64,000 nucleotides of DNA from an uncultured Candidatus Actinomarina sp. (GTDB taxonomy: Bacteria; Actinomycetota; Acidimicrobiia; Actinomarinales; Actinomarinaceae): positions 1 to 64,000 of the forward strand of contig CABZMN010000006.1 of the NCBI GenBank assembly GCA_902526825.1, given 5' to 3'. Made by a program: the position numbers and the translations under genes. Below, piece by piece: positions 635-64,000 of the stretch (positions are counted from its first letter, which is position 1; every line of letters starts with the position of its first letter). The notes below the pieces were generated by a model. It did not search any database and was not told the origin of the DNA. It saw only the letters and a list, made by a program, of their open reading frames with translations.

Positions 635-636
635 AG

Positions 637-940: not shown

Positions 941-949
941 AGCTTTATT

Positions 950-1887: not shown

Positions 1888-2220
1888 ATGGATAGCGATA
1901 TTTTTAATATATGTGGAGAATCTGATTTATTACCAGAGCTCGAAAAAATACAAAGCGACCCAAACTTTGTATTTGCACCAGATCCAAATTTTAATCCCAT
2001 AACATTATTTAATGAGATAGGTGATACGATCATGGTTAATTCATGGATTGAATGTGCAAATTATGTAAATGGTGGATGGGTAAATAATATTGTAGAGACT
2101 GGAAACTATGAAAGAAATCTATTCTTTGGTTTGTCAATATTAACTTTTGTATTATTCATTCCTGAAATTTTAAAATATTTGAATCGATTTTTAAATAGAA
2201 AAAAGGAGAAAATATCTTAA
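1888..2220 (+). CDS. Hypothetical protein with C-terminal TM segment
   Basis: 110-aa ORF, C-terminal LFFGLSILTFVLFIPEIL then basic tail; upstream of a polymerase-like gene. Confidence 0.55.
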   Translation: MDSDIFNICGESDLLPELEKIQSDPNFVFAPDPNFNPITLFNEIGDTIMVNSWIECANYVNGGWVNNIVETGNYERNLFFGLSILTFVLFIPEILKYLNRFLNRKKEKIS

Positions 2221-2276
2221 AGAGTGAAACTACAATAAAGTTTGTTTTTCTTATCCTTCTTCTTTTTGTTCCTTGG

Positions 2277-5347: not shown

Positions 5348-5386
5348 TCCGAAGTCAGATGCTCTATCCAGTTGAGCCACAGGCGC
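5313..5386 (-). tRNA. tRNA-Arg(UCG)
   Basis: Reverse complement GCGCCTGTGGCTCAACTGGATAGAGCATCTGACTTCGGATCAGAGGGTTGGGGGTTCGAGTCCCTCCAGGCGTG; anticodon loop CTTCGGA. Confidence 0.95.
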
Positions 5387-5421
5387 AAAATATTTAAAAG
5401 TTTTATACAATATATATATTA

Positions 5422-6156: not shown

Positions 6157-7794
6157 ATGTATCAACTTAAAAGCATAGTAAATAAACTAGAAGAAAATTT
6201 AAAAGAATTCAACATCTTCGAAAACGTTGATATAAAAATTTGCAATGAGCAAAAATATCAGTTTCAAATTAACAATTTTGTAAAGTACCAAAAACACGAA
6301 CAGATAAATGATATTATCACTTCAACAATTAAAATTATTGAAGAAACAGATATTATCAATTCATTTGAGGTATCCGATAAAAATTTCATAAATTTAGAGA
6401 TAAATATAAATAAATTTCAATATACATTCAAAAATATTAGAAAAGCCATAATGGTTGAAAATCAAAAGAATATAATTCTCGATTATGGTGGACCTAATAT
6501 TGGAAAACCTTTACATGTTGGTCATTTAAGATCATTAAATATAGGAAGGAGTCTATATAACATAAATAAATTGGTGGGGAATAAAGTAACCAGTGATATT
6601 CATCTGGGTGACTGGGGAATGCCAGTTGCTCAAATAATTAGTTATATGATTGTTCATAAAATAGATTTTGAAAAAATAACTATTGATGAATTAGAGAAAA
6701 TTTATCCTTTGTCATCTAGTTTATATAATGATCATGATGAATTTAAAGAATCTGCTCTTAAAATAAATAAAAAATTAAATGAAAACGATAAAGAAATAAT
6801 TGATCATTGGAGTAGGTTAAAGAATGTTTCGATAAAAGCAATAAATCAGACACTTGAAATACTTGGCCATAAATTTGACCTAATTCTTGGAGAAAGTGAT
6901 GTAAATTATTTAATTCCAGAAATGATTGAATCTCTATTGAAAAAGAAAAAAATAACTAACGATAATGGAGCTTACGTCGCAAGTTTAAATACAGATCCAA
7001 AGATATTAATAACAAAATCAGATGGTTCATACTTATACATAACGACAGATCTTGCAACAGTAATTAATCGAAAAGATAAAAATTTCGACACGGTGTTATA
7101 TGTGGTCGACAAAAGACAGTCATTACATTTTAATCAACTTTTTAAATGTATCGATTATTTTGGTTTTGACGATGCGAATTTTGAGCATATAGCATTCGGT
7201 ACTATAAATGACTCAATGGGAAATCCATTCAAGACAAGAGAGGGCGGGACAAAAAAATTAATTGACTTGTTTAAAGAAACTAAATATTACGTAAAAGATA
7301 TCAATAAGAATCTAGATGACCCAACAGTTAATAAATTAGCTAACACAATTCTTACTTTTAGTGATCTGATTACAAATAGAAAAACAGATTACAAATTTGA
7401 TTTAGAAAAATTTTCTAATATTAGTGGAAAAACAGGAATCTACGTTCAATATGCACTTGTAAGAGCTAAAAAATTATTGAATAAATCAAACTTAAAATTA
7501 GAAAAAGATTTTTATATAACAAAATTAGATGAAAAAGATTTAAACCTAATTTATAGTTTTATGAAATTTGAAATTTATTTTGAGCAAGCTTTAAATAATA
7601 GTGAACCACATCACCTTGCAGATTATCTATATGAATTATCAAATTTATATAATTCAATGTATCAAAGTGATAATATTTTAGAGAATAACGATCAGGAAAT
7701 TATGACTAATAAGTTGTTGGTTACCAGCTACTTTGTAGATTATTCGACATTGTTAATGGAGTCTTTAGGTATATTTCCAGTAGATGAAATGTAA
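6157..7794 (+). CDS. argS: Arginyl-tRNA synthetase
   Basis: LDYGGPNIGKPLHVGHLRSLNIGRSL (HIGH), DIHLGDWGMP, YVVDKRQSLHFNQLF, KTREGG. Confidence 0.95.
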   Translation: MYQLKSIVNKLEENLKEFNIFENVDIKICNEQKYQFQINNFVKYQKHEQINDIITSTIKIIEETDIINSFEVSDKNFINLEININKFQYTFKNIRKAIMVENQKNIILDYGGPNIGKPLHVGHLRSLNIGRSLYNINKLVGNKVTSDIHLGDWGMPVAQIISYMIVHKIDFEKITIDELEKIYPLSSSLYNDHDEFKESALKINKKLNENDKEIIDHWSRLKNVSIKAINQTLEILGHKFDLILGESDVNYLIPEMIESLLKKKKITNDNGAYVASLNTDPKILITKSDGSYLYITTDLATVINRKDKNFDTVLYVVDKRQSLHFNQLFKCIDYFGFDDANFEHIAFGTINDSMGNPFKTREGGTKKLIDLFKETKYYVKDINKNLDDPTVNKLANTILTFSDLITNRKTDYKFDLEKFSNISGKTGIYVQYALVRAKKLLNKSNLKLEKDFYITKLDEKDLNLIYSFMKFEIYFEQALNNSEPHHLADYLYELSNLYNSMYQSDNILENNDQEIMTNKLLVTSYFVDYSTLLMESLGIFPVDEM

Positions 7795-7800
7795 ATTTTC

Positions 7801-8343
7801 TTATAAAAATATTTGAGAGGACATTACCCAAAGGAATAAAACAACACTGTATGATACTGAATCCTTTAGGTCAATAGTTCTTAACAAATTATGCTGTAAA
7901 AACAAAACTAGAGGTACTGCTATAAAGCCAGAAAATGAAACAGCTTTACCAATATCAATTACATCGCTTACTATTTTTGATTGTGGGTCAATAAAGAATT
8001 GAAAAAAAATAAGAAAAAAGAGAGAGGTAAATATAGCAATAATAATATTTGTAATGAGGTCTCGAAATGAAGAATTATATATTTTGAAAATATTCAAAAA
8101 CTCAACAGGAATAAATAAAACAAAGAGCGATACACAGAAAAGAATTAAAAACCAAAATAATCCTTGTGCGTTCCATGTAATTACTTGTTGTTCGATAATA
8201 CCTATAGATTCCATAAGAAGATATACAGAGTAACCAAGGTAAATTGAACCTAATGAAAATAGATACAATCCAAACATACTAAACATGTGCTTTTTCTGAA
8301 AATTTATATTTGTTATTTGATTATTCATATTTTCATAATTCAT
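7801..8343 (-). CDS. Hypothetical membrane protein
   Basis: 180-aa ORF with about five hydrophobic segments. Confidence 0.55.
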   Translation of the reverse strand: MNYENMNNQITNINFQKKHMFSMFGLYLFSLGSIYLGYSVYLLMESIGIIEQQVITWNAQGLFWFLILFCVSLFVLFIPVEFLNIFKIYNSSFRDLITNIIIAIFTSLFFLIFFQFFIDPQSKIVSDVIDIGKAVSFSGFIAVPLVLFLQHNLLRTIDLKDSVSYSVVLFLWVMSSQIFL

Positions 8344-31424: not shown

Positions 31425-32060
31425 ATGTATTTTAGAATAACAATCCCAGCTCTACAGGATGGAAAAAAAGATGAGGCTGTGTCTTTTGTGAAAGATAAAG
31501 TTATGCCTGAATTTGATGGTACACCTGGCTTACTTTCAATGACAGCAGCCATAACAGGTGAGACATCTGGAATAAATATGTCGGCTTATGAAAATAAAGA
31601 AGCAAGTGATGCTATTGCTGAAAAAGTTCAAGCAACTCTAGCTGAGGCTGCATCATTTATGTCTGCACCTCCAGTAATTTATGAAGGTGAAGCTGTTTTT
31701 GGAAAGGTATATCAAAGCATTAGCAAGGAAGAGAAAAAACCTGGTTATATGAGATTGGTAGTGGGCGTAGCAAAAGAAACAGATGCTGTATTAAATTTCC
31801 TAAAAGAAAAAGTTGAACCTATTTATGAAGACTCTGAAGGACTTCAGATAACTGGAGCATTGTTTGATGGCAATAGTGCGATCAGTTGGAATATATGGGA
31901 TAGCCAGGAAGCTATGGAAAAAGCCGTAGAGAAGTTACAAGCTGCTCTTGATAGCGAATCAGAGAGCGATTTGTTTGATGGAGATACATTGGCCTACATG
32001 GGTCCTGTATATGCAGGTAAAGTATTTATAGATTTTAATGAGGGTGAGTCACCAAATTAA
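31425..32060 (+). CDS. Tandem-repeat ferredoxin-like/ABM-like protein
   Basis: Two ~95-aa repeats: MYFRITIP..DGKKDEAVSFVKDKVMPEFDGTPGLL and YMRLVVG..ETDAVLNFLKEKVEPIYEDSEGLQ. Confidence 0.65.
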   Translation: MYFRITIPALQDGKKDEAVSFVKDKVMPEFDGTPGLLSMTAAITGETSGINMSAYENKEASDAIAEKVQATLAEAASFMSAPPVIYEGEAVFGKVYQSISKEEKKPGYMRLVVGVAKETDAVLNFLKEKVEPIYEDSEGLQITGALFDGNSAISWNIWDSQEAMEKAVEKLQAALDSESESDLFDGDTLAYMGPVYAGKVFIDFNEGESPN

Positions 32061-32075
32061 AATCTCTAATTAGAT

Positions 32076-32109
32076 TAAAAAAAGAGCCCTCTTTGGGCTC
32101 TTTTTTTTT
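32076..32109 (+). terminator. Rho-independent terminator
   Basis: AAAAAAAGAGCCC-TCTTT-GGGCTCTTTTTTTTT. Confidence 0.93.
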
Positions 32110-32150
32110 GTAAAATAAATTTAGTAATAACTAAATTATTAGGAGGTAAT

Positions 32151-32768
32151 TTGTTAACAGCGAAAGAATCTCAACTTGGAAGTCTTATGGCAAGAATTGC
32201 CGCATTAGGAACTATTGTGTTCTTTGCAATTCAAGCACTGCTTATAGGACCAGATCAAGTTGGTTATAGTGAGCAATACGGAGCAATTTCAGATATGGTT
32301 GGCTTCGTTCAAAGTTTTGGAATTTTATTTACTATTTCATTAACTCAAAAATTGTTTGGAGATAATAATCCTTATTTCCGAATTGTTAGTGCAATATTGT
32401 TTGTAGCAGCAGTTATAACACTAACAGGATCTCTTGCATCTACAGGAAATGCAAACAGTGTGTTCGATACTGTATTAACAGCAGATCAGACTGGAGCAGT
32501 TGCTAGTAATGGTCAATTAGTAACTTTTATTTTGTTTGGTATATGGGCTTTATGTCTTATAAGTGCAGATGAAAACAATCTTGTACCATCATGGGGAAGA
32601 GTTTCGGGTCAAGGAGCAGCCTATCTGATTATTGTTGCTCAAATAGGTATATTTTTTGGGTTAATACCAGCTAATGCTTTTGTTCCTTTGTTTTTGCTTG
32701 GTGGAGTAGTTTTATTTCCAATCTTCACATGGGGCATAAGTGTAGCCTTTAGCTCAACTGGAAATTAA
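32151..32768 (+). CDS. Six-TM membrane protein of the ABM-associated family
   Basis: TTG start after AGGAGG; GPDQVGYSEQYG loop and VPSWGRVSGQGAAY, GGVVLFPIFTWGISVAFS; paralogous to 59118..59726 and 61525..62139. Confidence 0.7.
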   Translation: MLTAKESQLGSLMARIAALGTIVFFAIQALLIGPDQVGYSEQYGAISDMVGFVQSFGILFTISLTQKLFGDNNPYFRIVSAILFVAAVITLTGSLASTGNANSVFDTVLTADQTGAVASNGQLVTFILFGIWALCLISADENNLVPSWGRVSGQGAAYLIIVAQIGIFFGLIPANAFVPLFLLGGVVLFPIFTWGISVAFSSTGN

Positions 32769-35363: not shown

Positions 35364-36569
35364 ATGGGTATTCCAGAAATTATGTTTCCAAATGAAGACA
35401 TAGAGTTTATTAAAGATCCTTACCCTTATTTGAAAGACTTGCGAGATGAATCACCAATTCATTATGACAAATTATCGGGATTAAATTTAGTAACACATTT
35501 TGAAGATGTAAAAGATATACAAAAAAGTAAAAATTTTTCTTCTTCTGAACCAACAGACTATGTAAAGGATTCAGATGAATTATTAATTAACCCGAAAAAT
35601 TATGATTATTTTTGGAAGACTGAAGAATTTAATTTATTAAATCTTGAGGGCAATATTCATGATGAACTCAGAGGTTTAGTTGCTAAAGCTTTTTTAAATA
35701 GGCAAGTACAAGAGCTAAAACCATTCATGGAAAAAAAGTCAAGCGAGCTTCTTAATGGTGTTAATAATGATAAGTTTGATCTCTTGGCTGATTATGCACA
35801 GCCATATTCAATAGCTGTAATTGGAGAGCTTTTAGGTGTGCCTCAAGTAGATTATGATAAGTTTCTTTACTGGTCACACGCCATAGTAAAAATGTATGAC
35901 CTAAAAGTTTCTGATGAAAGTGCATCAGAGGCTGAAGCAGCTGCAAAAGAATTCTATATTTATATGAATAATTTAATTGATGAGAAAAACAAAAATCCTC
36001 AAAATGACATGATCTCAAGATTATCCCAAGTTACAGAAAATGATCAGAAACTAACTAAAGACCAGATAATTTGTACAGTGATATTACTTTTAAATGCTGG
36101 CCACGAAGCAACTGTAAATACAATAGGAAATTCGATAGTTGCATTATTGCAAAATAATATTCCTACTAAGAATTTGGACAAGGATCACGATATTAAAAAT
36201 ATTATTGAAGAGCTGATACGTTGGGATAGCCCTCTGCAATTTTTTCAAAGATGGGTATTAGAGGAAACGGAGATCTCTGGAATCAAATTACCTAAATTTT
36301 CAAAAATTGCAATCCTTTTAGGATCAGCAAACAGAGATGGGGAAGCTTTTGAAGATCCGGAAGAAATAAATTTCCAAAGAAGTAATTTGAACCATACAAG
36401 TTTTGGAGGTGGAGTGCATTATTGCTTAGGTGCTCATCTAGCAAGATTAGAATTAGAGGTGTCATTTAAAAATTTATTTCAAAATAATATTAGTTTGAAT
36501 GAAGAGCCTGAAAGAACCGGGGCTTTTGGTATTAGGGGTTTTAAAGAAATTAACGTATCAATTAATTAA
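35364..36569 (+). CDS. Cytochrome P450
   Basis: I-helix LLNAGHEATVNTIGNS; heme-binding FGGGVHYCLGAHLARLE. Confidence 0.96.
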   Translation: MGIPEIMFPNEDIEFIKDPYPYLKDLRDESPIHYDKLSGLNLVTHFEDVKDIQKSKNFSSSEPTDYVKDSDELLINPKNYDYFWKTEEFNLLNLEGNIHDELRGLVAKAFLNRQVQELKPFMEKKSSELLNGVNNDKFDLLADYAQPYSIAVIGELLGVPQVDYDKFLYWSHAIVKMYDLKVSDESASEAEAAAKEFYIYMNNLIDEKNKNPQNDMISRLSQVTENDQKLTKDQIICTVILLLNAGHEATVNTIGNSIVALLQNNIPTKNLDKDHDIKNIIEELIRWDSPLQFFQRWVLEETEISGIKLPKFSKIAILLGSANRDGEAFEDPEEINFQRSNLNHTSFGGGVHYCLGAHLARLELEVSFKNLFQNNISLNEEPERTGAFGIRGFKEINVSIN

Positions 36570-36615: not shown

Positions 36616-37809
36616 TTGAACATGGCTGATTCGAAAAAATATGGAATAAATACAAGAGCTATCCACACTCAAAAAAAATTTGAACTTCCAACTGGAGATG
36701 TTATGCCTCCACTGCACATGTCAACAACATTCGAGAATACTGAGCCTGGTGAATCAGAATATTTTTATGGAAGAATGGGAAATCCAACTCGAGAGATCTT
36801 TGAAAGAACAATTGCTTCTCTGGAGGGTATTGAAGACTACGAAAATATGCATGGATTTGCAATGGCTTCTGGTATGGCTGCAGTAACAATGATTGCTGAA
36901 CTAATTGAACCTGGAGAAAATGTTGTTATTACAGATGAAGTGTATGGGGGAACAACTAGATTTTTTTCAAAAATTGCACCAAAACGTGGAATAGAAGTAA
37001 ACTTTTGTAATTTTTATGACACAGATAAGTTAGAAAGTTTAATTAATGAAAAAACAAAATTAGTTTGGATAGAATCTCCATCCAATCCAAATATTAATCT
37101 TTATGATATTTCCTCAATTGCTGAGATAGTCCATCGAAATAATTCAATACTTGTGGCAGACAGCACCTTCTCTACCCCATTTATAACAAGACCTTTTGAA
37201 CACGGAGTTGACATTATTATGCACTCAACTACAAAATATATTGGTGGCCATAGTGATACTCTTGGAGGAGTCGTAGTAACTAATGATCCCGAGTTACATG
37301 AGAACCTCTATTTTGTTCAAAAGGCAAGTGGCGGCGTAATGTCTCCTTTTGATGCATATCTTGCTCAAAGAGGACTGTATACACTTGGACCACGTATTCA
37401 GATACATTCAAAAAATGCACATGAACTTGCTGAATATTTATCAAGTTCTAAGCACATAAAAGAAGTGAAATATCCAGGCTTAACAGATTTTAAAAATCAT
37501 GAAATTGCCGTAAAGCAAATGGATTATTTTGGTGGAATGCTTAGCTTTTATACAGAAGACCATATTGATAAACAAAAATTATTTGATAATTTAGATTTAT
37601 ATAAATTAGCTGTAAGTTTAGGTGGAGTGGAGTCTTTGATTGAAGTTCCTTCGTTGATGACGCATGATTCAGCTGCTGGAACAGATGCAGAAGCTCCTGA
37701 TGACCTAATTAGAATATCAGTAGGGCTTGAGAATATAGAAGATCTTATTTCAGATATGGATAGATCATTAAATGCTTCCATAAAATCTCTTGATGAATCA
37801 AAAAAATAA
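36616..37809 (+). CDS. Cys/Met metabolism PLP-dependent enzyme (MetB/MegL-type)
   Basis: GINTRAIHTQ...YGRMGNPTRE...ASGMAAVTMI...DSTFSTPFITRPFEHGVDIIMHSTTKYIGGHSDTLGG. Confidence 0.94.
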   Translation: MNMADSKKYGINTRAIHTQKKFELPTGDVMPPLHMSTTFENTEPGESEYFYGRMGNPTREIFERTIASLEGIEDYENMHGFAMASGMAAVTMIAELIEPGENVVITDEVYGGTTRFFSKIAPKRGIEVNFCNFYDTDKLESLINEKTKLVWIESPSNPNINLYDISSIAEIVHRNNSILVADSTFSTPFITRPFEHGVDIIMHSTTKYIGGHSDTLGGVVVTNDPELHENLYFVQKASGGVMSPFDAYLAQRGLYTLGPRIQIHSKNAHELAEYLSSSKHIKEVKYPGLTDFKNHEIAVKQMDYFGGMLSFYTEDHIDKQKLFDNLDLYKLAVSLGGVESLIEVPSLMTHDSAAGTDAEAPDDLIRISVGLENIEDLISDMDRSLNASIKSLDESKK

Positions 37810-38761
37810 TTTAAATAATTTTTTCCCTCTAAAAGTTGCAATCTATTCTGTCTTAGGATTTTTTACTATTTATATTCTGTTTGGTTTAGATGGCTGGGGT
37901 GATAGAGCTTCAAACGAAAATGCTGTTGGTCAGGTCTCAAGATGGTGCGAAAGAGTAAGTGATGGATTATTGAGGGAGCCTTCAAATACATTAGGTAACT
38001 TGGGTTTTATATTTGTAGGTATTTATATGTTTTATAAACTGTCTCAAGATGCAACGTCTGAAAAAGGAATTACTATGTTTGGTTCTTCTAGTATTGCGGT
38101 GATCTATGCCGGAGCCTCCACTTTTCTAGGTCCAGGTTCGATGGCAATGCATGGGACTAACACTGAATTTGGGGCATGGCTAGATAACTTATCAATGATT
38201 ATGTACATAATTATTTTATGGATTTATAACTTAAAAAAACTAATTGGTTTTTCAACAAGAATATATCTAACCCTCTATTTCTTACTTGTAATGTTCTATG
38301 CCGTTGACTCATGGTTTTTAGGTGGTGGGTTTGGTGTTGGAATTAGTTTGTTTGAATTGAGCATTGGGCTTTGGATTGCAACAGAGATTGTTGTAAAATT
38401 TCCAAACATTTATGGAAGAATCAGTTCAGGTATTTCTGTATTAATTATTCAACAACTATTTGGTAGTCCAGTATTAGATTCTTTTCAAGACTTCCAAAAT
38501 AATTGGGAGATGCTTCTTTACTTTACACCTGCATTAATTCCAAACTTAAGAAAGCCATCAGAGATAAATTACTCTCCTTGGTTTTTCTTAGGATTTCTCT
38601 CATTCTTTGGTGCGTTGCTTATTTGGGAAACAGGCGTTCCAGATCATCCTTGGTGTAAACCCGACTCATGGTTGCAAGCTCATATGATATGGCATTTATT
38701 ATGCTCAGCTGCTACGTTTTCATTTTTCAAACTTTACAGAACTGAAAAATATTTAACTTAA
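37790..38761 (+). CDS. Ceramidase-like (CREST superfamily) membrane protein
   Basis: WCERVSDGLLREPSNTLGNLGF; GSMAMHGTNTEFGAWLDNLSM; DSWLQAHMIWHLLCS. Confidence 0.75.
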   Translation: MMNQKNNLNNFFPLKVAIYSVLGFFTIYILFGLDGWGDRASNENAVGQVSRWCERVSDGLLREPSNTLGNLGFIFVGIYMFYKLSQDATSEKGITMFGSSSIAVIYAGASTFLGPGSMAMHGTNTEFGAWLDNLSMIMYIIILWIYNLKKLIGFSTRIYLTLYFLLVMFYAVDSWFLGGGFGVGISLFELSIGLWIATEIVVKFPNIYGRISSGISVLIIQQLFGSPVLDSFQDFQNNWEMLLYFTPALIPNLRKPSEINYSPWFFLGFLSFFGALLIWETGVPDHPWCKPDSWLQAHMIWHLLCSAATFSFFKLYRTEKYLT

Positions 38762-47084: not shown

Positions 47085-48092
47085 TTAGGGAAGAATTAAT
47101 TGTGCTGTAAATAATTGATAAATAGGATTTTTCATAGGATCGGCCATTTCATTTGTTGCCCCACTCATAACCAGCAAATATGTTCCATTGTCAAGTGGTA
47201 CTCCTGTTGGATCTAAGTAACTAAAATCTTTTTCAGTTATTCTCTTTTTACTAAATTTCCAATCTAAGCCATCTCTTGAGGTTGCGTAAAATATACTTTG
47301 GGGTATGTCGGGAAGGTAGTGTGGAGTGTATGACATTACAGCTCTCCAGTCTCCTTCTTCAGCTTTTAAAACTTCAAAATCTACATAGCCATCATCAATT
47401 CTGTAACCTGGGTCAAGTGTAAACTCAATCCCTTTTGTTGTTTTTGACGTTGCGCTCGAAATTTTCTCAGGTGAAAAATTATCCTCTGTATATATCCAGT
47501 AAACTCTTACCAAACCATTTGGCGTAACTACTGAGTCGGGAACACCCCAAGCTACTTCATCTTCTTTAGCTGTAATCCCTAAAGGTGTTTTCTCAGTATA
47601 TGAGAGCCCATCCTCAGAAAAAATTGCAGTATAAATTCCACTTTCCATTGTATTTGGGTTCATTTCTACAAAATAACCCCTTCTTTCACCATCTAGGGTT
47701 TCAATCAAAGTTAGATCTGTAATAAATCGAATGGTTCCCTGTTTTTCGCAATCAAAATCATAACTACAAAGAAAAACTACAACACCATCAAAATCATTGT
47801 AAAAAAGTCTTAAAGTAGATTCATCTACTATTTCCATATGCGAACTTGTACCGTAATGATCTATAGGTTTTATATTTTCAATCGTTACAGCTTGATTTTC
47901 CTTACTTACTGAATCAGATTTATTATTTGTGTCAGTTTGGGCGGTTTCTTCCAATTTTTCAGTTGTTTCTAAATTGTTCACATCAGTTTCTATATCTTCT
48001 TCTATCGGTTCATTTACTTCGATAGAGGAACCACTACCACACATACCAAAAGCTAATATTAAAAAACATAAAATAAACTTTTTTTCTTTCAT
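47085..48092 (-). CDS. Lipoprotein, beta-propeller-like; paralog of 48089..49342
   Basis: Lipobox ILAFGMCGSG; 'Y..EDGLSY' and 'Y..SRDGLDW' strands typical of propeller repeats. Confidence 0.65.
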   Translation of the reverse strand: MKEKKFILCFLILAFGMCGSGSSIEVNEPIEEDIETDVNNLETTEKLEETAQTDTNNKSDSVSKENQAVTIENIKPIDHYGTSSHMEIVDESTLRLFYNDFDGVVVFLCSYDFDCEKQGTIRFITDLTLIETLDGERRGYFVEMNPNTMESGIYTAIFSEDGLSYTEKTPLGITAKEDEVAWGVPDSVVTPNGLVRVYWIYTEDNFSPEKISSATSKTTKGIEFTLDPGYRIDDGYVDFEVLKAEEGDWRAVMSYTPHYLPDIPQSIFYATSRDGLDWKFSKKRITEKDFSYLDPTGVPLDNGTYLLVMSGATNEMADPMKNPIYQLFTAQLILP

Positions 48093-49342
48093 GGCAGTAC
48101 TAACTCAGCAGCAAACAATACATGTTCTCTAGCTCCCAAGGTATTAGGAGCAGCTGAACCTACAACTAAAAAGTTTTTGTCATCAATTTGGATGGCTGTA
48201 GGGTCGAAGTAAGAATACCCTTTAGGAGTTATTCTTTCCTCGATTAAATCCCACTTTAACCCATCTTTAGATTTTGCATAAAATAGGCTCTGAGGTATTT
48301 CGGGCATATAATGTGGAGTGTACGACATTAGAGCTTTCCAGTCTCCTTCGACAGCTCTTATTACTTCAAAATCTACATAACCATTTTCTAACCTGTATCC
48401 AGGATCCATGGCAAACTCAATACCCTTAGTAGTTTTAGATGTTGCACTTACAAGTTTTTCATCAGAGGTCTTGTCTTCTGTATAAACCCAATAAACTCTT
48501 ACTAAACCATTTGGCATTAATACAGCATCTGGCACTCCCCAGGCAATCTCATTCTGATCTACAGGAAACCCAAGCGGTGTTTCATTACTATAACTCAATC
48601 CATCTTCTGAAAAAACAGCAGTAAAAATATCTTTCTGTTTGGTTTGAGGATTTAATGCAACATAGTATCCTCTTCTTACCCCGGCTAGTGTCTTGATTAT
48701 TGTAAGGTCTGACATCCTCTCAAGAGCTCCTTGTATTTCACACTTAAGCTCATAATCACATAAAGATACTGCTATCCCTTTTACCTCAATGCTGCTGTAA
48801 AATAATCTGAGAGTCTTGTCATCAACTTTTTCTAAATGAGGACTTACGCCATCTTCGTCCAAAGATCTAATGTTTTCAACGCTTGCAAATGAAGTGGCGT
48901 AATAGGTCTCTTGAACAATTTCAGTATCATTAGAGGAAGTTGCTTCTTTTATTCCTATTCCAGGTGGACCAGGAAGATTACATGATGTGAAATAATCCAT
49001 ATGCTCCTGAAGAATTGCCCCTTCCTCCATTAAGCTTTTTTCCATGCTTTTTAGAGATTCTGTGGTTGAAATTTCTGATATACATTGCTTTTCATTATCT
49101 GCTAAAAACGAAAGTGCACCTTGCGGGAATTCTTTAAGGACTTCTTTAATATCAGCCATTTCAGTATTTGCTTCCGGTTTTGATAGTTGTTCTTTTTCTT
49201 GGACTTCGTTTTCGATAATTTCATTTTCAACTGGATTTTCTAATACTTGAGGTGAGTTTACAGGCGATTCAATATTTTCTTCACCAGAGCATGCTTGAAG
49301 TAAAAAAAGTAAGATAATCCCTATTTTTATTGACTTTTTCAT
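48089..49342 (-). CDS. Lipoprotein, beta-propeller-like; paralog of 47085..48092
   Basis: Lipobox LLFLLQACSG; same core (RRGYYVALNP...VAWGVPD-type...VRVYWVYTED...SYTPHYMPEIPQSLFYA). Confidence 0.65.
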   Translation of the reverse strand: MKKSIKIGIILLFLLQACSGEENIESPVNSPQVLENPVENEIIENEVQEKEQLSKPEANTEMADIKEVLKEFPQGALSFLADNEKQCISEISTTESLKSMEKSLMEEGAILQEHMDYFTSCNLPGPPGIGIKEATSSNDTEIVQETYYATSFASVENIRSLDEDGVSPHLEKVDDKTLRLFYSSIEVKGIAVSLCDYELKCEIQGALERMSDLTIIKTLAGVRRGYYVALNPQTKQKDIFTAVFSEDGLSYSNETPLGFPVDQNEIAWGVPDAVLMPNGLVRVYWVYTEDKTSDEKLVSATSKTTKGIEFAMDPGYRLENGYVDFEVIRAVEGDWKALMSYTPHYMPEIPQSLFYAKSKDGLKWDLIEERITPKGYSYFDPTAIQIDDKNFLVVGSAAPNTLGAREHVLFAAELVLP

Positions 49343-49676: not shown

Positions 49677-50945
49677 CTATGAAACTTGAATTTTCACATC
49701 TTTTCTAGGGTTTGGTATTGGTGCAGGGTTGATTTTAAGTTCTTCATTTGTACTAATTACCTGAAAATTATCTACAAGTTTATAGATAACGTTTTTAAAT
49801 AAATAACTTGCAAAAAATTTTCCAAGACAAGTATGAGCTCCTCCAGCAAATGGAAAATATGCCTCATGTGTAATTGTTGGATCTTCAAATCTTTCTGGAT
49901 TGAAAGCTAAAGGATCTTCCCAGTATCTTTCATCGTTGTGCAAAACTAAAGGTCCAGCAGCAATATATGTATTTTTAGGTATTTCATAACCGTCCAGTTC
50001 TGCATCTCGGACTACCCATCTTGGAGAAAAAGGGACAGGAGGGTATTTTCTTATTGCTTCATTAAATAAAGCCTCACCTATGATTCCATTTTTAAGATCA
50101 GATATGTCTGTTTTTGATAGTGTAGAAGATTCCGTTTTAACTTTGTTTTGATAACTTTTATCTCCAGCTAAAAAGTGAATTGATGAAGTCAGGGTGCTTG
50201 TTGTTGTGTCATGCGCAGCAAGTAGTAAAAAAATCATATGCTCAGCTATTTCGAAATTTGTTAACCCAGCTTGCTCATTATTTGTTTTTACTAAGTCTGC
50301 AAATAATGTTTCTTTTGAAAGATCAATCTTGTCAGATTTTTCTTGAAAATATTCTAATAACTCAACCCTAGCTTTTAATCCTTTTTTCATTCTTGTCATT
50401 GGATAAGGGCTACGTACAATTGTTGTTGCAGGTTTGATTGAATTTATAAAAAGCTGATTTAAGTGATTTAATTTTGTATCGTCTACTTCATCAAAAAATA
50501 ATTCAACAGCAACGTTAAACATAAGTTGTTTTATTGACTTATATAAATAAAACTCTCTTTTTTGTTTTACTTCTTCAATCCATGAATCAATTCTTGGTTG
50601 AATGATGTGTATATATTTATCTAATGCATCTCTTCGAAATGAATTCTGCAAAAGTGATCTATGATATTTATGATCATCAAAATCACGAAGCATCAGACCA
50701 TTTTCAAATGTTGGTCCTATGGAGAATTCCCAACCATGTTTTGAAGAAAAATTATCATCAGGATCTAAAAAAATTTTTTTTGTAGCTGAGGGAGTTAAGA
50801 ATAACATTACGTCTTCATTTAAAATATTAAGCTGAAACACATCACCCTTTGATTCCTGAAGTCTTTGGATCAATGCCAGTGCATCATAATTAAATTGTAT
50901 AGAGTGACCCACAACAGGAGGGCTTCCAACTACTGGTGCTTTCAT
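49677..50945 (-). CDS. Cytochrome P450 (second)
   Basis: LLAAHDTTTSTLTSS I-helix; FPFAGGAHTCLGKFFASYLFK heme-binding loop. Confidence 0.95.
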   Translation of the reverse strand: MKAPVVGSPPVVGHSIQFNYDALALIQRLQESKGDVFQLNILNEDVMLFLTPSATKKIFLDPDDNFSSKHGWEFSIGPTFENGLMLRDFDDHKYHRSLLQNSFRRDALDKYIHIIQPRIDSWIEEVKQKREFYLYKSIKQLMFNVAVELFFDEVDDTKLNHLNQLFINSIKPATTIVRSPYPMTRMKKGLKARVELLEYFQEKSDKIDLSKETLFADLVKTNNEQAGLTNFEIAEHMIFLLLAAHDTTTSTLTSSIHFLAGDKSYQNKVKTESSTLSKTDISDLKNGIIGEALFNEAIRKYPPVPFSPRWVVRDAELDGYEIPKNTYIAAGPLVLHNDERYWEDPLAFNPERFEDPTITHEAYFPFAGGAHTCLGKFFASYLFKNVIYKLVDNFQVISTNEELKINPAPIPNPRKDVKIQVS

Positions 50946-56851: not shown

Positions 56852-57226
56852 TTATTCCTTTTCTTGAATTTTGATTATTGCACGATTTTCATTAGAACCT
56901 CGTATAAACATTTTAGACATTGATCCATACTTTTTTATGATTTTATCAAGAGCTGCTTGTTTCTTTTCCTCGTCATCAATTATTGATGCTCTTACATCAA
57001 GTGGATCTGAAAGTGCACTGCTCCCAATTTGGTCTGTAACATATATAGTTGCTCTGCCATTGTTATTAATTCTTTTTACTTTTCCAGCGGATTTACTTGA
57101 AGTAATAACTAAATAATCTTCATGTTCTGCAACCCATACTGGAGTCTTTACTGAAGTATCATCTTTTTTGTATGTAATTAAATTGATATATTCATGATCT
57201 GCAAAATCTAAGAGATTCATATTCAA
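56852..57226 (-). CDS. PPOX-class (F420/FMN-type split barrel) family protein
   Basis: INLITYKKDDTSVKTPVWVAEHEDYLVITSSKSAGKVKRINNNGRATIYV. Confidence 0.9.
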   Translation of the reverse strand: MNMNLLDFADHEYINLITYKKDDTSVKTPVWVAEHEDYLVITSSKSAGKVKRINNNGRATIYVTDQIGSSALSDPLDVRASIIDDEEKKQAALDKIIKKYGSMSKMFIRGSNENRAIIKIQEKE

Positions 57227-57350: not shown

Positions 57351-58451
57351 TTATTTTTTATTAGGTAACCCAAAAAGTGGTCTTAAAAATTTAATATTTT
57401 TTACACCGTGATAAATGGTGAGACTCAAGAAACAGAGTAAAAACAAAACGAGTGAAAACTTGATTAAAAAAGGTAAATTTATATCTGAAAAAATATACAT
57501 CACTCCCATTTGTACAGGCATGTGCACAATATAAACAGGAAATATTGCTTGTTTGTAATATTGCAGTTGTGATGAATCTTTATTTAGGTATTTTGCTCCA
57601 ATTCCAAGAATTAAGAAAATAAAGTTAAAAGATTCGAAAGCGATTAGCTTATTTACAACTTCGAATTCGTTTACAAATCTGTTTACTAAGAGTGGAATAC
57701 CTATGGCAGTATGAGTGCTTATATTTTTTAAATTATATTCCCAAAATTTATCACCTTGAGAGGTTAAAACTATTCCAATAAAAAACCATAAAAAACCAAG
57801 TAATAAACCATGGTTCGTACCATAGTATTCGGCATAACCATTTCCATAACCTATCTCTTGATTAAAAGCTGTTAAGTCGAGAAGGTGACCTTCAAGAACT
57901 ATTGGGATTGAGAAAATTAAAACACCTCCTCTAAAGTTAAGAATTGAATCTAAAAATTTAAAACCTTCTTTTTTATTTGATAAGAAGTTAATAATTGGAA
58001 TGAGCAATAAACAATAAATTAATATATTTATTAAAAACCATAAATGCCCCCCTGTGAAAAAAGAGGTAATCACAATTCCAACGCTGTCTTCCATGTTTAT
58101 ATCCCCGTAGATAAACTGAACAGAAATTATCAAATACAATGGAACAAAAGTTATGGAACCAAAAAGATAAGGAATTCCCAATCTTTTCAGTCTCTCTTTA
58201 AATAGATCTCCAATACCTCTGTTTTGGAATGAAAATCTTAATGCAATACCAGCAATTACAAAAAGTAGCGGAATCCTCCATATGTTGAATATGCTAAGCA
58301 AGCTCCATATATTATCTATTGGCTTATTGTTCGGAACAAAAAGAATCCACTTAGCTACAGATGTGAAAGATACAGCCAAATGATAAAAAATTAAGAGAAA
58401 AAGAGCAATAGATCTAAGTGCGTCTATATCATGTCTTCTTTCGTCAAACAT
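57351..58451 (-). CDS. Acyltransferase family 3 membrane protein (OpgC-like)
   Basis: RRHDIDALRSIALFLLIFYHLAVSF; IPLLFVIAGIALRFSF; GGHLWFLINILIYCLLL. Confidence 0.88.
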   Translation of the reverse strand: MFDERRHDIDALRSIALFLLIFYHLAVSFTSVAKWILFVPNNKPIDNIWSLLSIFNIWRIPLLFVIAGIALRFSFQNRGIGDLFKERLKRLGIPYLFGSITFVPLYLIISVQFIYGDINMEDSVGIVITSFFTGGHLWFLINILIYCLLLIPIINFLSNKKEGFKFLDSILNFRGGVLIFSIPIVLEGHLLDLTAFNQEIGYGNGYAEYYGTNHGLLLGFLWFFIGIVLTSQGDKFWEYNLKNISTHTAIGIPLLVNRFVNEFEVVNKLIAFESFNFIFLILGIGAKYLNKDSSQLQYYKQAIFPVYIVHMPVQMGVMYIFSDINLPFLIKFSLVLFLLCFLSLTIYHGVKNIKFLRPLFGLPNKK

Positions 58452-58473: not shown

Positions 58474-59118
58474 TTAATTTATTGATTCACCGGACTTAAA
58501 GTCAACAAATTGCTTTATTGCATAAGGGTTTCCATAATAATCATCAAACCCATTCATCAATGGCATAAATTGTTCGTATACATTTCCATCAGCATTAAGT
58601 TTTTCGTCGAAATCATGCTTTGCGTCATGAGAAGTCCAAAATTCAAATAATACTAAATTGTTTTCATCAGATTTGAAAGCTCCATAAGAGATAATGCCTT
58701 CATCCTCTTCAAGTTTTGGTAAGTAGATTTCTTTTTGAAGATTCATATACTCATCAGCATCTTTGACATCTAATTTAGCAAATGCTAAAAACATTGACTC
58801 TTTTGAGTCTTCAATTAATGAATCTTTTAAAGTCTTACCGGTAATCAATTCACCTTCATAGACTCTTGGAAAACTATCAAGAATATCTTGAATTTGCATT
58901 AAGTTTTCGTTTCTAATTTCTGCAAATTTATCTGCAGTCTCTTTGTCCTTCATAAATGCAATACCAAGATTTACATTATCTTTTGGGTTAAAGAATGCGA
59001 TAGAATACATATCACCTCTAAGAGGCTCTAAAGCTGGGAACCCTGAGGTTTCAAAAAAGTCTTTGAGCTCTTCAAGCTTTCCGTCTTTAAATAAAATGGT
59101 TACTGCTACGGCATACAT
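58474..59118 (-). CDS. Tandem-repeat ferredoxin-like/ABM-like protein
   Basis: MYAVAVTILFKDGKLEELKDFF... and MFLAFAKLDVKDADEYMNLQKEIYLPKLEEDEGI; start TAATG-coupled to upstream membrane gene. Confidence 0.6.
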   Translation of the reverse strand: MYAVAVTILFKDGKLEELKDFFETSGFPALEPLRGDMYSIAFFNPKDNVNLGIAFMKDKETADKFAEIRNENLMQIQDILDSFPRVYEGELITGKTLKDSLIEDSKESMFLAFAKLDVKDADEYMNLQKEIYLPKLEEDEGIISYGAFKSDENNLVLFEFWTSHDAKHDFDEKLNADGNVYEQFMPLMNGFDDYYGNPYAIKQFVDFKSGESIN

Positions 59119-59726
59119 TAGCTTGCGTAAGCTTTTGATATTGCAAAAAACCAAGCAGGCGTCAAAACTACTCCAAGAATTACATTTAAAGGTATAAATG
59201 CTGCATCAGGAAATAATCCAGCAAGGAAAACTATAGTTACTATTCCAATTCCATAGCCAACTGTATTTCCTACTGCTGGTCCCCATGATGGCAAAATATC
59301 TTTTCCATATTTTGCAAATTGTATATTCCAGGGTGCTATAAAGAGAAAAACTGCTGGAGTTACATAGAAAACAAAATCAGCAGCCATATCAGCTGTTAAA
59401 GTAGTTTCGTTAAATGCATTATAAACTGCAGAAGGAACAAGTGCAGTTACCACACCTACAGCAGAGACTGTGTAAGCTAAACCAATTGATCCTGTCAGTA
59501 ATGGTTTATCTTTATCGTCAAGAAGCTTTCCCGATAATCTAACAACTCCCATTCCAGCCATAAGCTGGAGAGCGCTAGATATTCCAATTATCGGTCCCCA
59601 AGTTTCATTGTAACCTGATGCATCTGGTCCTAATACAAATACTTGAATAAGAAAATTTGCAAGCAATAAAGTTAATGCTCCTAATGCAAATCTCCTACCA
59701 AGATTTTTTTCTTCTGTTGTTATCAT
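59118..59726 (-). CDS. Six-TM membrane protein of the ABM-associated family
   Basis: LGPDASGYNETWG; LPSWGPAVGNTVGYGIGI; IPLNVILGVVLTPAWFFAISKAYAS. Confidence 0.7.
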   Translation of the reverse strand: MITTEEKNLGRRFALGALTLLLANFLIQVFVLGPDASGYNETWGPIIGISSALQLMAGMGVVRLSGKLLDDKDKPLLTGSIGLAYTVSAVGVVTALVPSAVYNAFNETTLTADMAADFVFYVTPAVFLFIAPWNIQFAKYGKDILPSWGPAVGNTVGYGIGIVTIVFLAGLFPDAAFIPLNVILGVVLTPAWFFAISKAYAS

Positions 59727-59789
59727 TATTGATTATTCCAATCTAAAAGTTTTCCTTCAAGAAAACTTTCATTTTTTATATTCTTTCTT

Positions 59790-60146
59790 CTAATTACTAT
59801 TTGAGATTTCCATACCGCCTATGATCAGCTCCATCTCTTTCCCATATTTTTCATCTGCTTCTTCAGATGTCATTCCAATTCTCTCGGCAAATCTATCTTG
59901 GAACTCTTTGGTTCCAGCATCTGCATCATAAGACTCCATCCATTTATTTCTTGCATCTTTTGATGGAAACATATTTATGGATACATAATAAACACCATCC
60001 TCTTGTTCTTGGTATGCCCACAAGAATTTTACATCTGTCGCATCTACAAACTCTTTAGAATATTCATTCCAAACTTCTTTCCAAGCTTTATAGACTTCTT
60101 CACTATGTTCTTTATATTTTGTTATATTGACTGTCATTTGTTCCAT
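59790..60146 (-). CDS. Single-domain ABM/ferredoxin-like protein
   Basis: MEQMTVNITKYKEHSEEVYKAWKEVW...DGVYYVSINMFPSKDARNKWMESYDA. Confidence 0.6.
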   Translation of the reverse strand: MEQMTVNITKYKEHSEEVYKAWKEVWNEYSKEFVDATDVKFLWAYQEQEDGVYYVSINMFPSKDARNKWMESYDADAGTKEFQDRFAERIGMTSEEADEKYGKEMELIIGGMEISNSN

Positions 60147-60148
60147 AA

Positions 60149-60799
60149 TTATTTACTCCATTCTGAAAGTTTTCCTTCAGGAAAACTTACATTATTTACA
60201 TATATCTTGCATACTCCAGTTACAACAGTTGGTGGACTTTTAATATAAGTCATAGCATCTGCCATTATTTGTTGAAATTTTTCCTGGGATGAATCTATTG
60301 CTTCTTGTGATTCCCAATTGCTCAATGTGACACCCTTGTTGTCACCTACATCTGCAGCTAAAGCACCAATTAAACCTTCTGTACCTTCATAGCTCGCATA
60401 CACAGTATTTTGAATCCAATCTGTGAATTCATCAATTTTTTCTTCGTCATATGCTGATCCAAATCCTAACCGAACAACAAAGGGTTTAACTGGATCGTCT
60501 TTTCTTGTAGTCTGATAAATTTGTCCTGCATTCATAGGTCCAAACGAAATAGTTGGTGGCCCGCTGACAAATTCTCCCAATCCACTTAGCGCTTCTTGAA
60601 TTTGTGGTCCAGCAGCATTCATTGCGTCTTCATTAGCCCACAAACTCCAAGAAGTCATTTGACCATTATCCATTTCAGCAATACAAATCTGAAATAAACC
60701 AGGCGTATCCCTAAAAGAATCGGCTACGCTTTCAGCATATGCTATAGTTTCTTCCATTTTGCCCTCTTGTATGTCAACTTGCGTTAATCTAAAGTACAT
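60149..60799 (-). CDS. Tandem-repeat ferredoxin-like/ABM-like protein
   Basis: MYFRLTQVDIQEGKMEETIAYAESVADSFRDTPGLFQI... and PFVVRLGFGSAYDEEKIDEFTDWIQNTVYASYEGTEGLIGA. Confidence 0.68.
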   Translation of the reverse strand: MYFRLTQVDIQEGKMEETIAYAESVADSFRDTPGLFQICIAEMDNGQMTSWSLWANEDAMNAAGPQIQEALSGLGEFVSGPPTISFGPMNAGQIYQTTRKDDPVKPFVVRLGFGSAYDEEKIDEFTDWIQNTVYASYEGTEGLIGALAADVGDNKGVTLSNWESQEAIDSSQEKFQQIMADAMTYIKSPPTVVTGVCKIYVNNVSFPEGKLSEWSK

Positions 60800-60823
60800 A
60801 TTTTCTCCTTTTAATTTAATTTT

Positions 60824-61465
60824 TTACAATTTTCCAACAGGAAAATCTACATAATTCTTCCATATATCACATTGACCAGTTACTTCTTGTGGCGGTTCTG
60901 AAATAAGGTTTGCGACCGCATCGGAAACTACAGATGCAATAACATCAGATGCTGAGTGTGCAGCATCATGATCAGTCCAAAAATTGAAACTAAATCCTTT
61001 ATCCTCTGCTACTTTACAAGCACCAGTTCCATAAATTCCCTCTACATTTTCATAAGCTGGATAAACAGTGTTTGTCATAAATTCTGTAACATCATCATAG
61101 GTTTTACCCTCTTGAGTTCCTCCACCTAAAACGAATCTCGCAAAAAATCCATCTTCGCCTTCCTTGGATACTGCGATATATTGTTGTCCAGCAACCATAG
61201 GTCCTTCCATCACTTCTGGTTGACCATCAAGCATCTCTGCCGCTCCTGCTAAAGCCTGATTAAATTTATCAATTGAAGCTTCTTTAGCTCCTTCATTAGT
61301 CCAAGTAGACCATGCCATGAATCTTCCATCATTTGTCGCACATGCAGCTATTCCTAATAACCCTGATATTCCATCATAAGATGGGATGACTGTATTTTTG
61401 ACGTATTCAAGGGCATTATCCATTTCACCCTCATTCACATCTGCAAGTGTAAGTCTTACAAACAT
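60824..61465 (-). CDS. Tandem-repeat ferredoxin-like/ABM-like protein
   Basis: MFVRLTLADVNEGEMDNALEYVKNTVIPSYDGISGLLGI... and FFARFVLGG..EGKTYDDVTEFMTNTVYPAYENVEGIYGT. Confidence 0.68.
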   Translation of the reverse strand: MFVRLTLADVNEGEMDNALEYVKNTVIPSYDGISGLLGIAACATNDGRFMAWSTWTNEGAKEASIDKFNQALAGAAEMLDGQPEVMEGPMVAGQQYIAVSKEGEDGFFARFVLGGGTQEGKTYDDVTEFMTNTVYPAYENVEGIYGTGACKVAEDKGFSFNFWTDHDAAHSASDVIASVVSDAVANLISEPPQEVTGQCDIWKNYVDFPVGKL

Positions 61466-61524
61466 TTTTACTCCTAACGTAATTTTGTCGTCAGTTAAGT
61501 GTATCTACAAAGCCCTGTTTATGT

Positions 61525-62139
61525 TTATGCCTTTGAAAATGCTGAAGAAAATGAGAATATAAATGCTGGAAACAAAATAACTCCGCCTAATACAGCTATT
61601 AAAATAAAGGCTCCTTGTGGTAGAAGTCCAAATATACTTCCAAGAGAAAACATCAATATTAAAATAGATCCACCCCAACCAGAATAAACACCATAGGTCG
61701 GGAGTTGACCATTATTAACTGAAAGTACACAAATTACTGCTATTCCAGCTAATAAATTCCAACCCCATGCATTAATATTTTGCAGTATCTGTATTTGATC
61801 AACTGTAAAGAGTGTTCCATCGTTATTAAAGTATCCAGTTGCGTTGAAGCTATTTACCATATTTATAGCTATTACTGCAAAAAAGGCTTGAATAACCACT
61901 CTAAAGTATGGTTTATCTTCAGCATTGAAGAGCTTTAGTGAGAATGCAAGTACAAACAAAAAAGAAAATGCTTGTGCGTAATTTAAAATTGCGACTATTC
62001 CTCCCGTTGCTGAATCAAAACCAGGACTACCTGGATCACCCAATGCAACCTGCACTGCAAATGATAAAAAGATACAGGCCGCAGAAACTCGAGCCATTAA
62101 GCTTCCTATTCTTTTTTCACTATCAGATAATGTATTCAT
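61525..62139 (-). CDS. Six-TM membrane protein of the ABM-associated family
   Basis: GSLMARVSAACIFLSFAVQVALGDPGSPGFDSATGG; LPTYGVYSGWGGSILI; GGVILFPAFIFSFSSAFS. Confidence 0.7.
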   Translation of the reverse strand: MNTLSDSEKRIGSLMARVSAACIFLSFAVQVALGDPGSPGFDSATGGIVAILNYAQAFSFLFVLAFSLKLFNAEDKPYFRVVIQAFFAVIAINMVNSFNATGYFNNDGTLFTVDQIQILQNINAWGWNLLAGIAVICVLSVNNGQLPTYGVYSGWGGSILILMFSLGSIFGLLPQGAFILIAVLGGVILFPAFIFSFSSAFSKA

Positions 62140-62151
62140 TTTTCCTTTCTT

Positions 62152-62724
62152 CTATTCCGTGCCCAATGACATTTTGTCACCCCAAGCAACATAGCTACCA
62201 ACGCCTAGTCCAATAATCATTGCAATCCACCCAATTCCAAATAATGGTTGAAATGACTCTGGTAGTGTATAGTCAAAGAAAAGCTGTGCTCCTGAACCAA
62301 TTAAAATAAATGTAAAAGCAAAAATGCTTAGATATTCATAAACTGGTCTAAACACTCCAGTACCTCTAGTCGTGAGAGCGAAAGTTAACGTGTTAAATGC
62401 CCATAAAAAATACATTCCAGCAAATCCATTTTCTCTAAATTCTGGAAATGATATTTCAATTAGCGTCCCAAGAATTATCACAGCACCTAAAATACCTGTA
62501 GCCATTTTCCAATAATCGGGGACTTGATCTTCTATTAAATAATATCCTCCAAGAATTATTCCTAAAAGTGTAAATGCCCAAGCAAAGTTGAATATTCTAT
62601 TGATCCCTTCTGGCCCCTCATATAGACCGAATCCATTACCAATAAGATATAAATTACAACCAATAAATCCAATACAATTTTGTCTTGCCAGTTGCCCTAC
62701 CGGCTGTGTAAAAAATTTTTTCAT
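62152..62724 (-). CDS. Multi-TM membrane protein, second family, in the ABM cluster
   Basis: 190-aa ORF with about six TM segments; lacks the PSWG..G signature. Confidence 0.6.
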   Translation of the reverse strand: MKKFFTQPVGQLARQNCIGFIGCNLYLIGNGFGLYEGPEGINRIFNFAWAFTLLGIILGGYYLIEDQVPDYWKMATGILGAVIILGTLIEISFPEFRENGFAGMYFLWAFNTLTFALTTRGTGVFRPVYEYLSIFAFTFILIGSGAQLFFDYTLPESFQPLFGIGWIAMIIGLGVGSYVAWGDKMSLGTE

Positions 62725-62850: not shown

Positions 62851-64000
62851 TTAATAATTTGAAATAGCGTCCGTAAGACTATCAATAAGTCTTTGAATAT
62901 CACTAATATTTACGCTTTCATTAGGGGCATGAGCATTTCCTTCTTCATCACCTGCACCAACTAAAACTATCTCAGAGTTAGGGAACTCATTAATAAAGAC
63001 ATTTGCAAAAGGAATTGAACCTCCTACACCCATATATGCCACTTCATTTTCCCAGTGTTTATTAAATGACTCTATTAGTTTTGAACTAAATTCATTTTTG
63101 GGATCAACTAGTATTCCTTTTCCTTTTGCTTCAGGTATGAATTCAACATTTGCATTAAAAGGAGTATTTTCTTTTATATGTTGTTCAAGCATATTCATTG
63201 CATGATCTGGATCTTCAGTTGGAGGAAGCCTTAAGCTAATTTTTGCTTTTGCTTTAGGAATGAGTAAATTTACAGATTCAGCTACAGGAGGAGCATCAAT
63301 GGCCAATATACTTAATGCGGGTTCCAACCATAATCTTTTTGAGTAACTATCCATTTCAAACAAGTTAACACCAGTGGAAGAAAGTGTGCTTTTTACAAAT
63401 TCATCAGATAGTTCAAATACATCTTGTTCGGTTGGAGTAAGTCCTTCTATAAGTAATTCTCCTTTATCATTATGAAAAGAAGAAATGATTCGACTTAAAA
63501 TCATAAATGCGTCTGGAACAACTCCTCCACCTAATCCAGAATGTACAGGTTCCATTTGTTGATCAACAACTATGACACCATCAACTAGTCCTCTTAGGGA
63601 TGTCGTTATCGTTGGAACACCTGACTTAATATTTCCTGAATCTGCAATAACAATTACATCTGCCTCAAGATCTTCTCTGTTTTCAGCGATAAACTCAGTC
63701 ATGTAGGGTGAACCTATTTCTTCTTCACCTTCAATAAAAATTTTTATATTCACAGGCAGGGTTTCAAGTAGGTTTTTCACCACTTCATAATGTGTTACAA
63801 CTCCTGCTTTATTATCTCCTGACCCTCTTGCAAAAAGTCTTCCATCGATAATCTCTGGTTTAAAGGGGTCTGTATCCCATTTATTTATATCTCCAACTGG
63901 TTGAACATCGTGATGTGCATAGAGAAGAACCGTTTTTTTAGAGGGGTCTATTTCACTCTGACCAAGTACGGCTGGTTTACTATTTTTACTAGAAGTAACC
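62851..64000 (-). CDS. M20 family metallopeptidase/dipeptidase (5' end outside window)
   Basis: KTVLLYAHHDVQPVGDINKWDTDPFKPEIIDGRLFARGSGDNKAG (in frame beyond ORF track start), IEGEEEIGSP, GAGDEEGNAHAPNESV. Confidence 0.93.
   Translation of the reverse strand, partial: VTSSKNSKPAVLGQSEIDPSKKTVLLYAHHDVQPVGDINKWDTDPFKPEIIDGRLFARGSGDNKAGVVTHYEVVKNLLETLPVNIKIFIEGEEEIGSPYMTEFIAENREDLEADVIVIADSGNIKSGVPTITTSLRGLVDGVIVVDQQMEPVHSGLGGGVVPDAFMILSRIISSFHNDKGELLIEGLTPTEQDVFELSDEFVKSTLSSTGVNLFEMDSYSKRLWLEPALSILAIDAPPVAESVNLLIPKAKAKISLRLPPTEDPDHAMNMLEQHIKENTPFNANVEFIPEAKGKGILVDPKNEFSSKLIESFNKHWENEVAYMGVGGSIPFANVFINEFPNSEIVLVGAGDEEGNAHAPNESVNISDIQRLIDSLTDAISNY

Follow-up and report, generated by a model that had tools for sequence, protein, structure and literature searches.

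A hypervariable 'Candidatus Actinomarina' array of six-helix membrane proteins and fused ABM barrels, possibly a membrane-coupled enzyme kit

Background

'Candidatus Actinomarina' is a marine lineage without cultured members, whose streamlined genomes measure close to 1.1 Mb (PMC7771536). A comparison of the Actinomarinales reported a single flexible island shared by the whole order, in a text that makes no mention of monooxygenase genes (PMC7771536). Here we analyze a gene array from a 64,000-base stretch of the same lineage (assembly GCA_902526825.1, contig CABZMN010000006.1, positions 1 to 64,000 of the forward strand), hereafter the window. At positions 58,474 to 62,724, the array sets genes for membrane proteins with six transmembrane helices (six-TM) beside genes for soluble proteins that mostly carry two ABM-like domains. 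Like the published island, fGI1, it stays at one place in the chromosome while its content varies and is exchanged between lineages. However, fGI1 is a glycotype island of 43-79 kb, low in guanine plus cytosine (GC) and built from tRNA-targeted cassettes (PMC7771536), whereas the array spans approximately 2-6 kb and changes by homologous exchange at gene boundaries; its GC is normal or slightly higher, and no tRNA lies at it.

The characterized members of the ABM family resemble the array barrels in sequence and fold, and the fused tandem halves have a counterpart in known fused barrels (PMC4835899). Their catalytic Asn and His positions, however, are not conserved in the array, which adds the pairing with six-TM proteins and a multi-gene arrangement. 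Four structures with two ABM domains per chain and similar length (PDB 3f44, 3mcs, 5f9p and 2pgc) reach TM-scores of 0.61-0.77 to our model of the array protein ABM_2, but at an identity of just 11-16%. To our knowledge, no membrane partner has been described for any of these four proteins. A full-text literature search, which most subscription papers lay beyond, did not find a description of the array.

Results and discussion

Anatomy of the array

A first-pass annotation, made by a model from the sequence alone, had reported a seven-gene cluster on the minus strand. All seven open reading frames (ORFs) were confirmed at the ends it gave: three code for six-TM proteins, three for tandem ABM-like proteins and one for a single ABM-like domain. 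They are listed in order of transcription, with percentages giving protein identity to the closest relative, genome G017, unless stated otherwise.

62152..62724, minus strand: TM_A, the first gene of the array, six-TM-type, 190 amino acids, family A2; ORF with 34 aligned members from related loci; 100% identical; no match in Pfam or PDB
61525..62139, minus strand: TM_B, six-TM, 204 amino acids, family A1; ORF, A1 alignment; 98% identical
60824..61465, minus strand: ABM_1, tandem ABM-like, 213 amino acids, swapped allele; ORF, Pfam ABM 0.035, homologous halves, mosaic
60149..60799, minus strand: ABM_2, tandem ABM-like, 216 amino acids, swapped allele; Pfam ABM 1e-7 in two stretches, AlphaFold2 model, Foldseek
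59790..60146, minus strand: ABM_s, single ABM-like domain, 118 amino acids; ORF, weak DUF1428 match (0.011)
59728..59785, minus strand: putative scar, a degenerate ABM_2 3' end (ESFLEGKLLDWNNQ-stop) on the border between the swapped block and TM_C; 47 of 57 bases equal the window's ABM_2 tail
59118..59726, minus strand: TM_C, six-TM-type, 202 amino acids, family A1; ORF, A1 alignment; 99% identical
58474..59118, minus strand: ABM_4, tandem ABM-like, 214 amino acids; start in the TAATG overlap; 98-99% identical to G017, G012 and G474

The TAATG overlap between TM_C and ABM_4 stood up to inspection, and the listed start of ABM_4 did not: the mechanical ORF listing used a TTG at 59154, and the homologous start is the ATG at 59118. 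The array genes are under purifying selection, with a ratio of nonsynonymous to synonymous substitution rates (dN/dS) of 0.06-0.11, and because they also have orthologues in dozens of genomes they are real beyond chance.

Linkage across the genus

We sampled 42 genomes of the genus, 396 of the class and 398 of the phylum; genome G465 is most likely the same as locus L004 and was counted once. The single genus of GTDB may encompass several genera of another treatment (PMC7771536). A genome-contig search matched a sole relative, OCS155 cluster bacterium AG-349-E07, which assigns the window to the OCS155/'Ca. Actinomarina' lineage. Within the genus, TM and tandem-ABM genes occurred together in 33 of the 42 genomes, while three had TM genes only, six had neither and none had ABM genes only. 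The nine genomes without a tandem ABM gene are 51-82% complete, and seven of them also lack the M20 peptidase gene that anchors the locus; all eight genomes that are at least 90% complete carry family A1 and tandem ABM. The two gene types are also close neighbors. Of 53 A1 genes, 49 have a tandem-ABM gene within 150 bp and 51 have one within 1.5 kb, the other two being on contigs where no ABM gene was found; conversely, a TM gene is present within 1.5 kb for 72 of 76 tandem-ABM genes. The first-pass annotation had proposed a membrane-associated multi-component system, which this linkage supports; soluble and membrane families failing to occur together elsewhere, the outcome it named as contrary, is not what the genus displays.

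Outside the genus, the phylum sample gave one further TM match, judged spurious, and the full tandem-ABM architecture was not found in the class sample. Distant single-domain ABM relatives exist in other Acidimicrobiia, with no A1 or A2 six-TM gene beside the ORFs recovered (L108, L110, L112 and L113).

A second pair of ABM and TM genes lies elsewhere in the window, on the plus strand in the interval between panB and msrA (31425-32768):

31425..32060, plus strand: ABM_5, tandem ABM-like, of the second (relocated) pair; site common to nine further genomes
32151..32768, plus strand: TM_D, six-TM, 205 amino acids, partner of ABM_5; six helices in the AlphaFold2 model

In the loci that we read, each genome carrying ABM_5 has one copy, placed in the main array or between panB and msrA, and never at both sites. 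At the panB-msrA site, TM_D comes after ABM_5 in nine of ten genomes, and in the main array of G003, G004, G010, G016 and G021 the same type of TM_D precedes ABM_5. Because the two genes are adjacent and co-directional at both sites, in reversed order, the pair was held together through relocation, and we regard this as the strongest evidence for a functional unit.

The barrel proteins

ABM_2 passes the curated cut-off of Pfam ABM (PF03992) with 32.4 bits against 23.1, at an E-value of 1e-7 over two stretches. ABM_1 and ABM_4 fall under that cut-off (0.035, and 0.0047, for the tandem genes other than ABM_2), and 26 of the 35 family members match at E <= 1. By hhalign, the two halves of the tandem proteins are mutual repeats (probability 99.7%, E 1.6e-25). 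AlphaFold2 was run on sequences of the window and L004 only; with an alignment of eight rows, it modeled ABM_2 as a two-domain barrel with a predicted local distance difference test score (pLDDT) of 88.5 and a predicted template modeling score (pTM) of 0.84. When this model was searched with Foldseek, tandem ABM structures ranked first: 3f44 (E 4.5e-12), 3mcs, 5f9p ('anthrone oxidase-like') and 2pgc (marine metagenome). The ABM-like fold proposed for the soluble proteins is supported by profile, model and fold search. For ABM_s, the label of a single ABM domain is loose: the single-domain proteins ABM_s and ABMx match DUF1428 (PF07237) and NIPSNAP (PF07978) weakly, under the curated cut-offs. 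DUF1428 and NIPSNAP belong to the same barrel clan.

Cofactor-free oxygenases of the ActVA-Orf6/SnoaB type have an Asn four residues ahead of a Trp, and heme-degrading proteins of the IsdG/HmoB type have the triad Asn6, Trp66 and His76 (the latter from PMC4835899). Across our 35 aligned rows, the Trp ending strand 3 is invariant in domain 2 (35/35); at the same position in domain 1, 21 rows have Trp and 5 have Tyr, with Met in every one of the five ABM_4 rows and Leu in the four ABM_6 rows. The strand-1 Arg is retained in 26/35 first halves and 30/35 second halves, and the first half of ABM_4 has neither the Arg nor the Trp seen in the other ABM families. Of the IsdG triad, only the domain-2 Trp is kept: the residue ten positions after the Trp is never His, and strand 1 has no Asn, in either half of any row. 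His is missing altogether from most proteins of three families (7/10 for ABM_2, 23/29 for ABM_5 and 4/4 for ABM_6). Nor was the Asn of the ActVA-Orf6/SnoaB type found, since domain 2 has Ser, Thr, Leu or Gly at that position and domain 1 has Asn in just 9/35 rows. Cofactor-free chemistry with other residues would remain compatible with this pattern.

These residues bear directly on whether the barrels degrade heme or depend on it, with membrane partners, in the manner of IsdG/HmoB, Cld/HemQ or DyP, as the first-pass annotation had in part suggested. HmoB and coproheme decarboxylases are among the fold matches of the ABM_2 model and a PPOX gene adjoins the array, but without a conserved triad and with so few His residues the barrels argue against His-ligated heme chemistry. 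The heme reading is not supported by the alignment, and we consider it highly improbable.

Several of the soluble proteins have C-terminal tails in common, as had been noted; one of the tails listed, IDFNEGE, belongs to the gene at 31425-32060 and so lies outside the array. At the DNA level, the FPxGKL tail corresponds to near-perfect palindromes (for example, AGTTTTCCTGAAGGAAAACT), which occur at 60167-60188, at 59728-59785 and at the ends of ABM_1 and ABM_2 genes in related loci. Their folding is somewhat stronger than that of synonymous shuffles (mean rank 0.21 over 24 related sequences) and is partly forced by the codons. The palindrome could be an RNA hairpin or an aid to recombination; the signs of RNA hairpins at ABM gene ends are suggestive only.

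The six-TM proteins

The membrane proteins fall into two families, A1 (TM_B, TM_C and TM_D) and A2 (TM_A), which are remote homologues over all six helices (profile comparison, probability 89%). Several paralogous TM clades, together with several paralogous clades in the tree of tandem-ABM proteins, support the earlier proposal that the system expanded by duplication. The six predicted helices were recovered for the homologous TM_D at 32151 by AlphaFold2 (pLDDT 77.4, pTM 0.75), a model limited by its shallow alignment of four sequences. Lys and Arg are almost confined to alternate loops, which places the N- and C-termini inside, so that a partner would face the cytosol.

Neither family has a match of weight in Pfam, NCBIfam, PDB sequences or fold space. 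The best sub-threshold matches, each for a few members, are DUF2871 (5e-5), HlyIII (8e-4) and EamA (5e-4), with a best Foldseek E of 0.48, and no internal 3+3 repeat was found. Two candidates for further membership in the superfamily, TM_E and TM_F, matched weakly only (TM_E to A1 at 80%, TM_F at 23-34%) and were set aside. A relative in genome G258 was rejected as a zinc-ribbon membrane protein with no ABM gene nearby.

A variable locus exchanged between species

The array occupies a constant location, with an M20 peptidase gene on one side, with or without a luciferase-like gene, and a PPOX gene on the other. In the window, its neighbors are:

62851..63999, minus strand: M20 peptidase, conserved left anchor, outside the system; ORF, conserved across loci
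57351..58451, minus strand: Acyl_transf_3 membrane acyltransferase, accessory, found beside the array in roughly half of genomes (12/27 loci); Pfam 5.2e-15
56852..57226, minus strand: PPOX-class F420-dependent oxidoreductase (Rv2061 type), conserved right anchor; TIGR03666 6.9e-24, slightly below its cut-off

Among 27 complete loci from 26 distinct genomes, we found 22 gene compositions, in which individual assignments can err because labels come from best matches and our own ORF calls. The order is near-constant: TM_A types, TM_B or TM_De, ABM_1, ABM_2, ABM_s, TM_C/D/E types, ABM_4 and ABM_5/6, often with a cupin or acyltransferase. A recombination hot spot that collects unrelated genes by chance would account for the fast turnover of composition. 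However, the locus draws on few families in near-constant order, its ABM_5 and TM_D pair survived relocation, and its genes are under purifying selection in streamlined genomes; neutral clutter is therefore a very unlikely explanation.

An ORF of approximately 1100 amino acids adjoins the M20 gene or the array in several Actinomarina genomes (L052:8908-12234, with ORFs of similar length in L101, L093, L095, L096 and L065). The one in L052 is a PutA-like fusion of proline dehydrogenase and aldehyde dehydrogenase.

Comparison with G017 exposes a mosaic. Protein identity is 97% for M20, 100% for TM_A, 98% for TM_B, 62% for both ABM_1 and ABM_2, 99% for TM_C, 98% for ABM_4, 84% for the acyltransferase and 79% for PPOX; ABM_s is absent at the same site in G017. 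Measured in steps of 60 bases, identity stays at 92-100% as far as 61511 and falls to 83% in the step holding the start codon of ABM_1. Within ABM_1 and ABM_2 it is 52-82%; across ABM_s it is nil, and it returns to 98% where TM_C starts. Other genomes are closer for some of these genes: ABM_1 is 94% identical to G006 and PPOX 99% to G012, with ABM_2 at 73% to AG-349-E07, and the tree of tandem-ABM proteins agrees with the mosaic. Since identity drops and recovers at gene starts, cassettes have been exchanged at gene boundaries. High identity to G017 resumes directly past the 58-base copy of the ABM_2 3' end, at the right border of the swapped block, and we read this degenerate copy as a probable recombination scar. 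Given the low dN/dS, variation lies in gene content and not in fast protein change. A phage origin was considered and dropped, as tblastn of ABM_1 against phages gave no match; plasmids were outside that search.

Hypervariable composition at a fixed site, with interspecies exchange at gene boundaries, resembles loci under frequency-dependent selection, and would fit a surface-diversification or phage-resistance locus in which the envelope is altered by variable six-TM proteins with help from the soluble ones. Against this, PADLOC gave no confident match (best E 0.0082 and 0.027, for two proteins only), low dN/dS and conserved outer-loop residues of the TM proteins argue against an arms race, and cytosolic ABM barrels have no place in such a scheme. 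We consider it unlikely.

Proposed function

A functional proposal can start from what the loci display: the anatomy, the genus-wide linkage, purifying selection and recombination at gene boundaries. We suggest, with a probability of roughly 0.4, a modular, lineage-specific array of six-TM and tandem-ABM units acting on lipophilic small molecules. Each unit would pair a six-TM inner-membrane protein with a tandem-ABM protein of the cytosol, in which the two fused domains build a single alpha+beta barrel. Judging from fold, topology and pairing, the barrel would bind a lipophilic small molecule, which the six-TM protein would gather or present on the inner side of the membrane. The barrels may act with or without catalysis; most likely the ligand would be modified without a bound cofactor, by oxygenation, cyclization or isomerization. 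Expansion and species-specific sets suggest several related ligands, and the set of units retained would differ from species to species with the compounds handled. ABM_4, given its first half, may be a binding or regulatory member.

Several observations weigh against this proposal. The catalytic residues of characterized ABM oxygenases are not conserved in the array barrels. The TM families have almost no conserved polar residues within the membrane, so nothing in these proteins points to catalysis or transport. In G006, ABM_5 lies at the panB-msrA site with no adjoining TM gene, and a few TM_A-type genes are solitary, with no ABM genes nearby (L098 and L099, in G020 and G008); these are possible solo members of the family. 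Codon usage gives no high-expression signal, and third positions do not carry the region's higher GC. Physical contact between TM and ABM proteins is an assumption of the proposal.

The absence of the canonical catalytic residues would also suit barrels that perform no chemistry and instead serve six-TM transporters or receptors as ligand-binding sensors or carriers. ABM_4 fits such a role, being among the better conserved proteins within the genus (82-99% identity) despite lacking the first-half Arg and Trp. Yet the closest Foldseek folds are mostly annotated or known oxygenases, and the TM families resemble no known transporter, which leaves this role possible though doubtful.

Other features of the window

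Two cytochrome P450 genes, at 35364-36569 (Pfam p450 9e-22) and 49677-50945 (8e-55), occur in this streamlined genome. Adjoining paralogous genes at 47085-48092 and 48089-49342 code for putative lipoproteins, the first with no Pfam match, and 37790-38761 codes for a membrane protein of 323 amino acids with a ceramidase-family match (PF05875, 1.5e-8). Positions 1-8000 have lower GC (0.27) with tRNA-Lys and tRNA-Arg, and may mark the border of the glycotype island described earlier.

Conclusions

The array is real, conserved and undescribed. Its fold is known; as far as tested, what is new are the two membrane families, their pairing with the barrels and the reshuffling. The first-pass interpretation is partly supported, and the main feature, a hypervariable array that is mosaic between species, is beyond the view of a single sequence. 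We tentatively regard the locus as a membrane-coupled enzyme kit made up of fused ABM barrels and six-TM proteins from two unclassified families, exchanged between species as whole cassettes with pairing and order kept. The retention of several array genes in each streamlined genome, and their renewal by interspecies exchange, implies that they contribute to open-ocean fitness. Beside the published island, the array would add a second variable locus, smaller and of defined composition, and would define two membrane protein families that are free of annotation. It would also tie tandem ABM, a common but poorly assigned fold, to a membrane partner, so that its function becomes testable.

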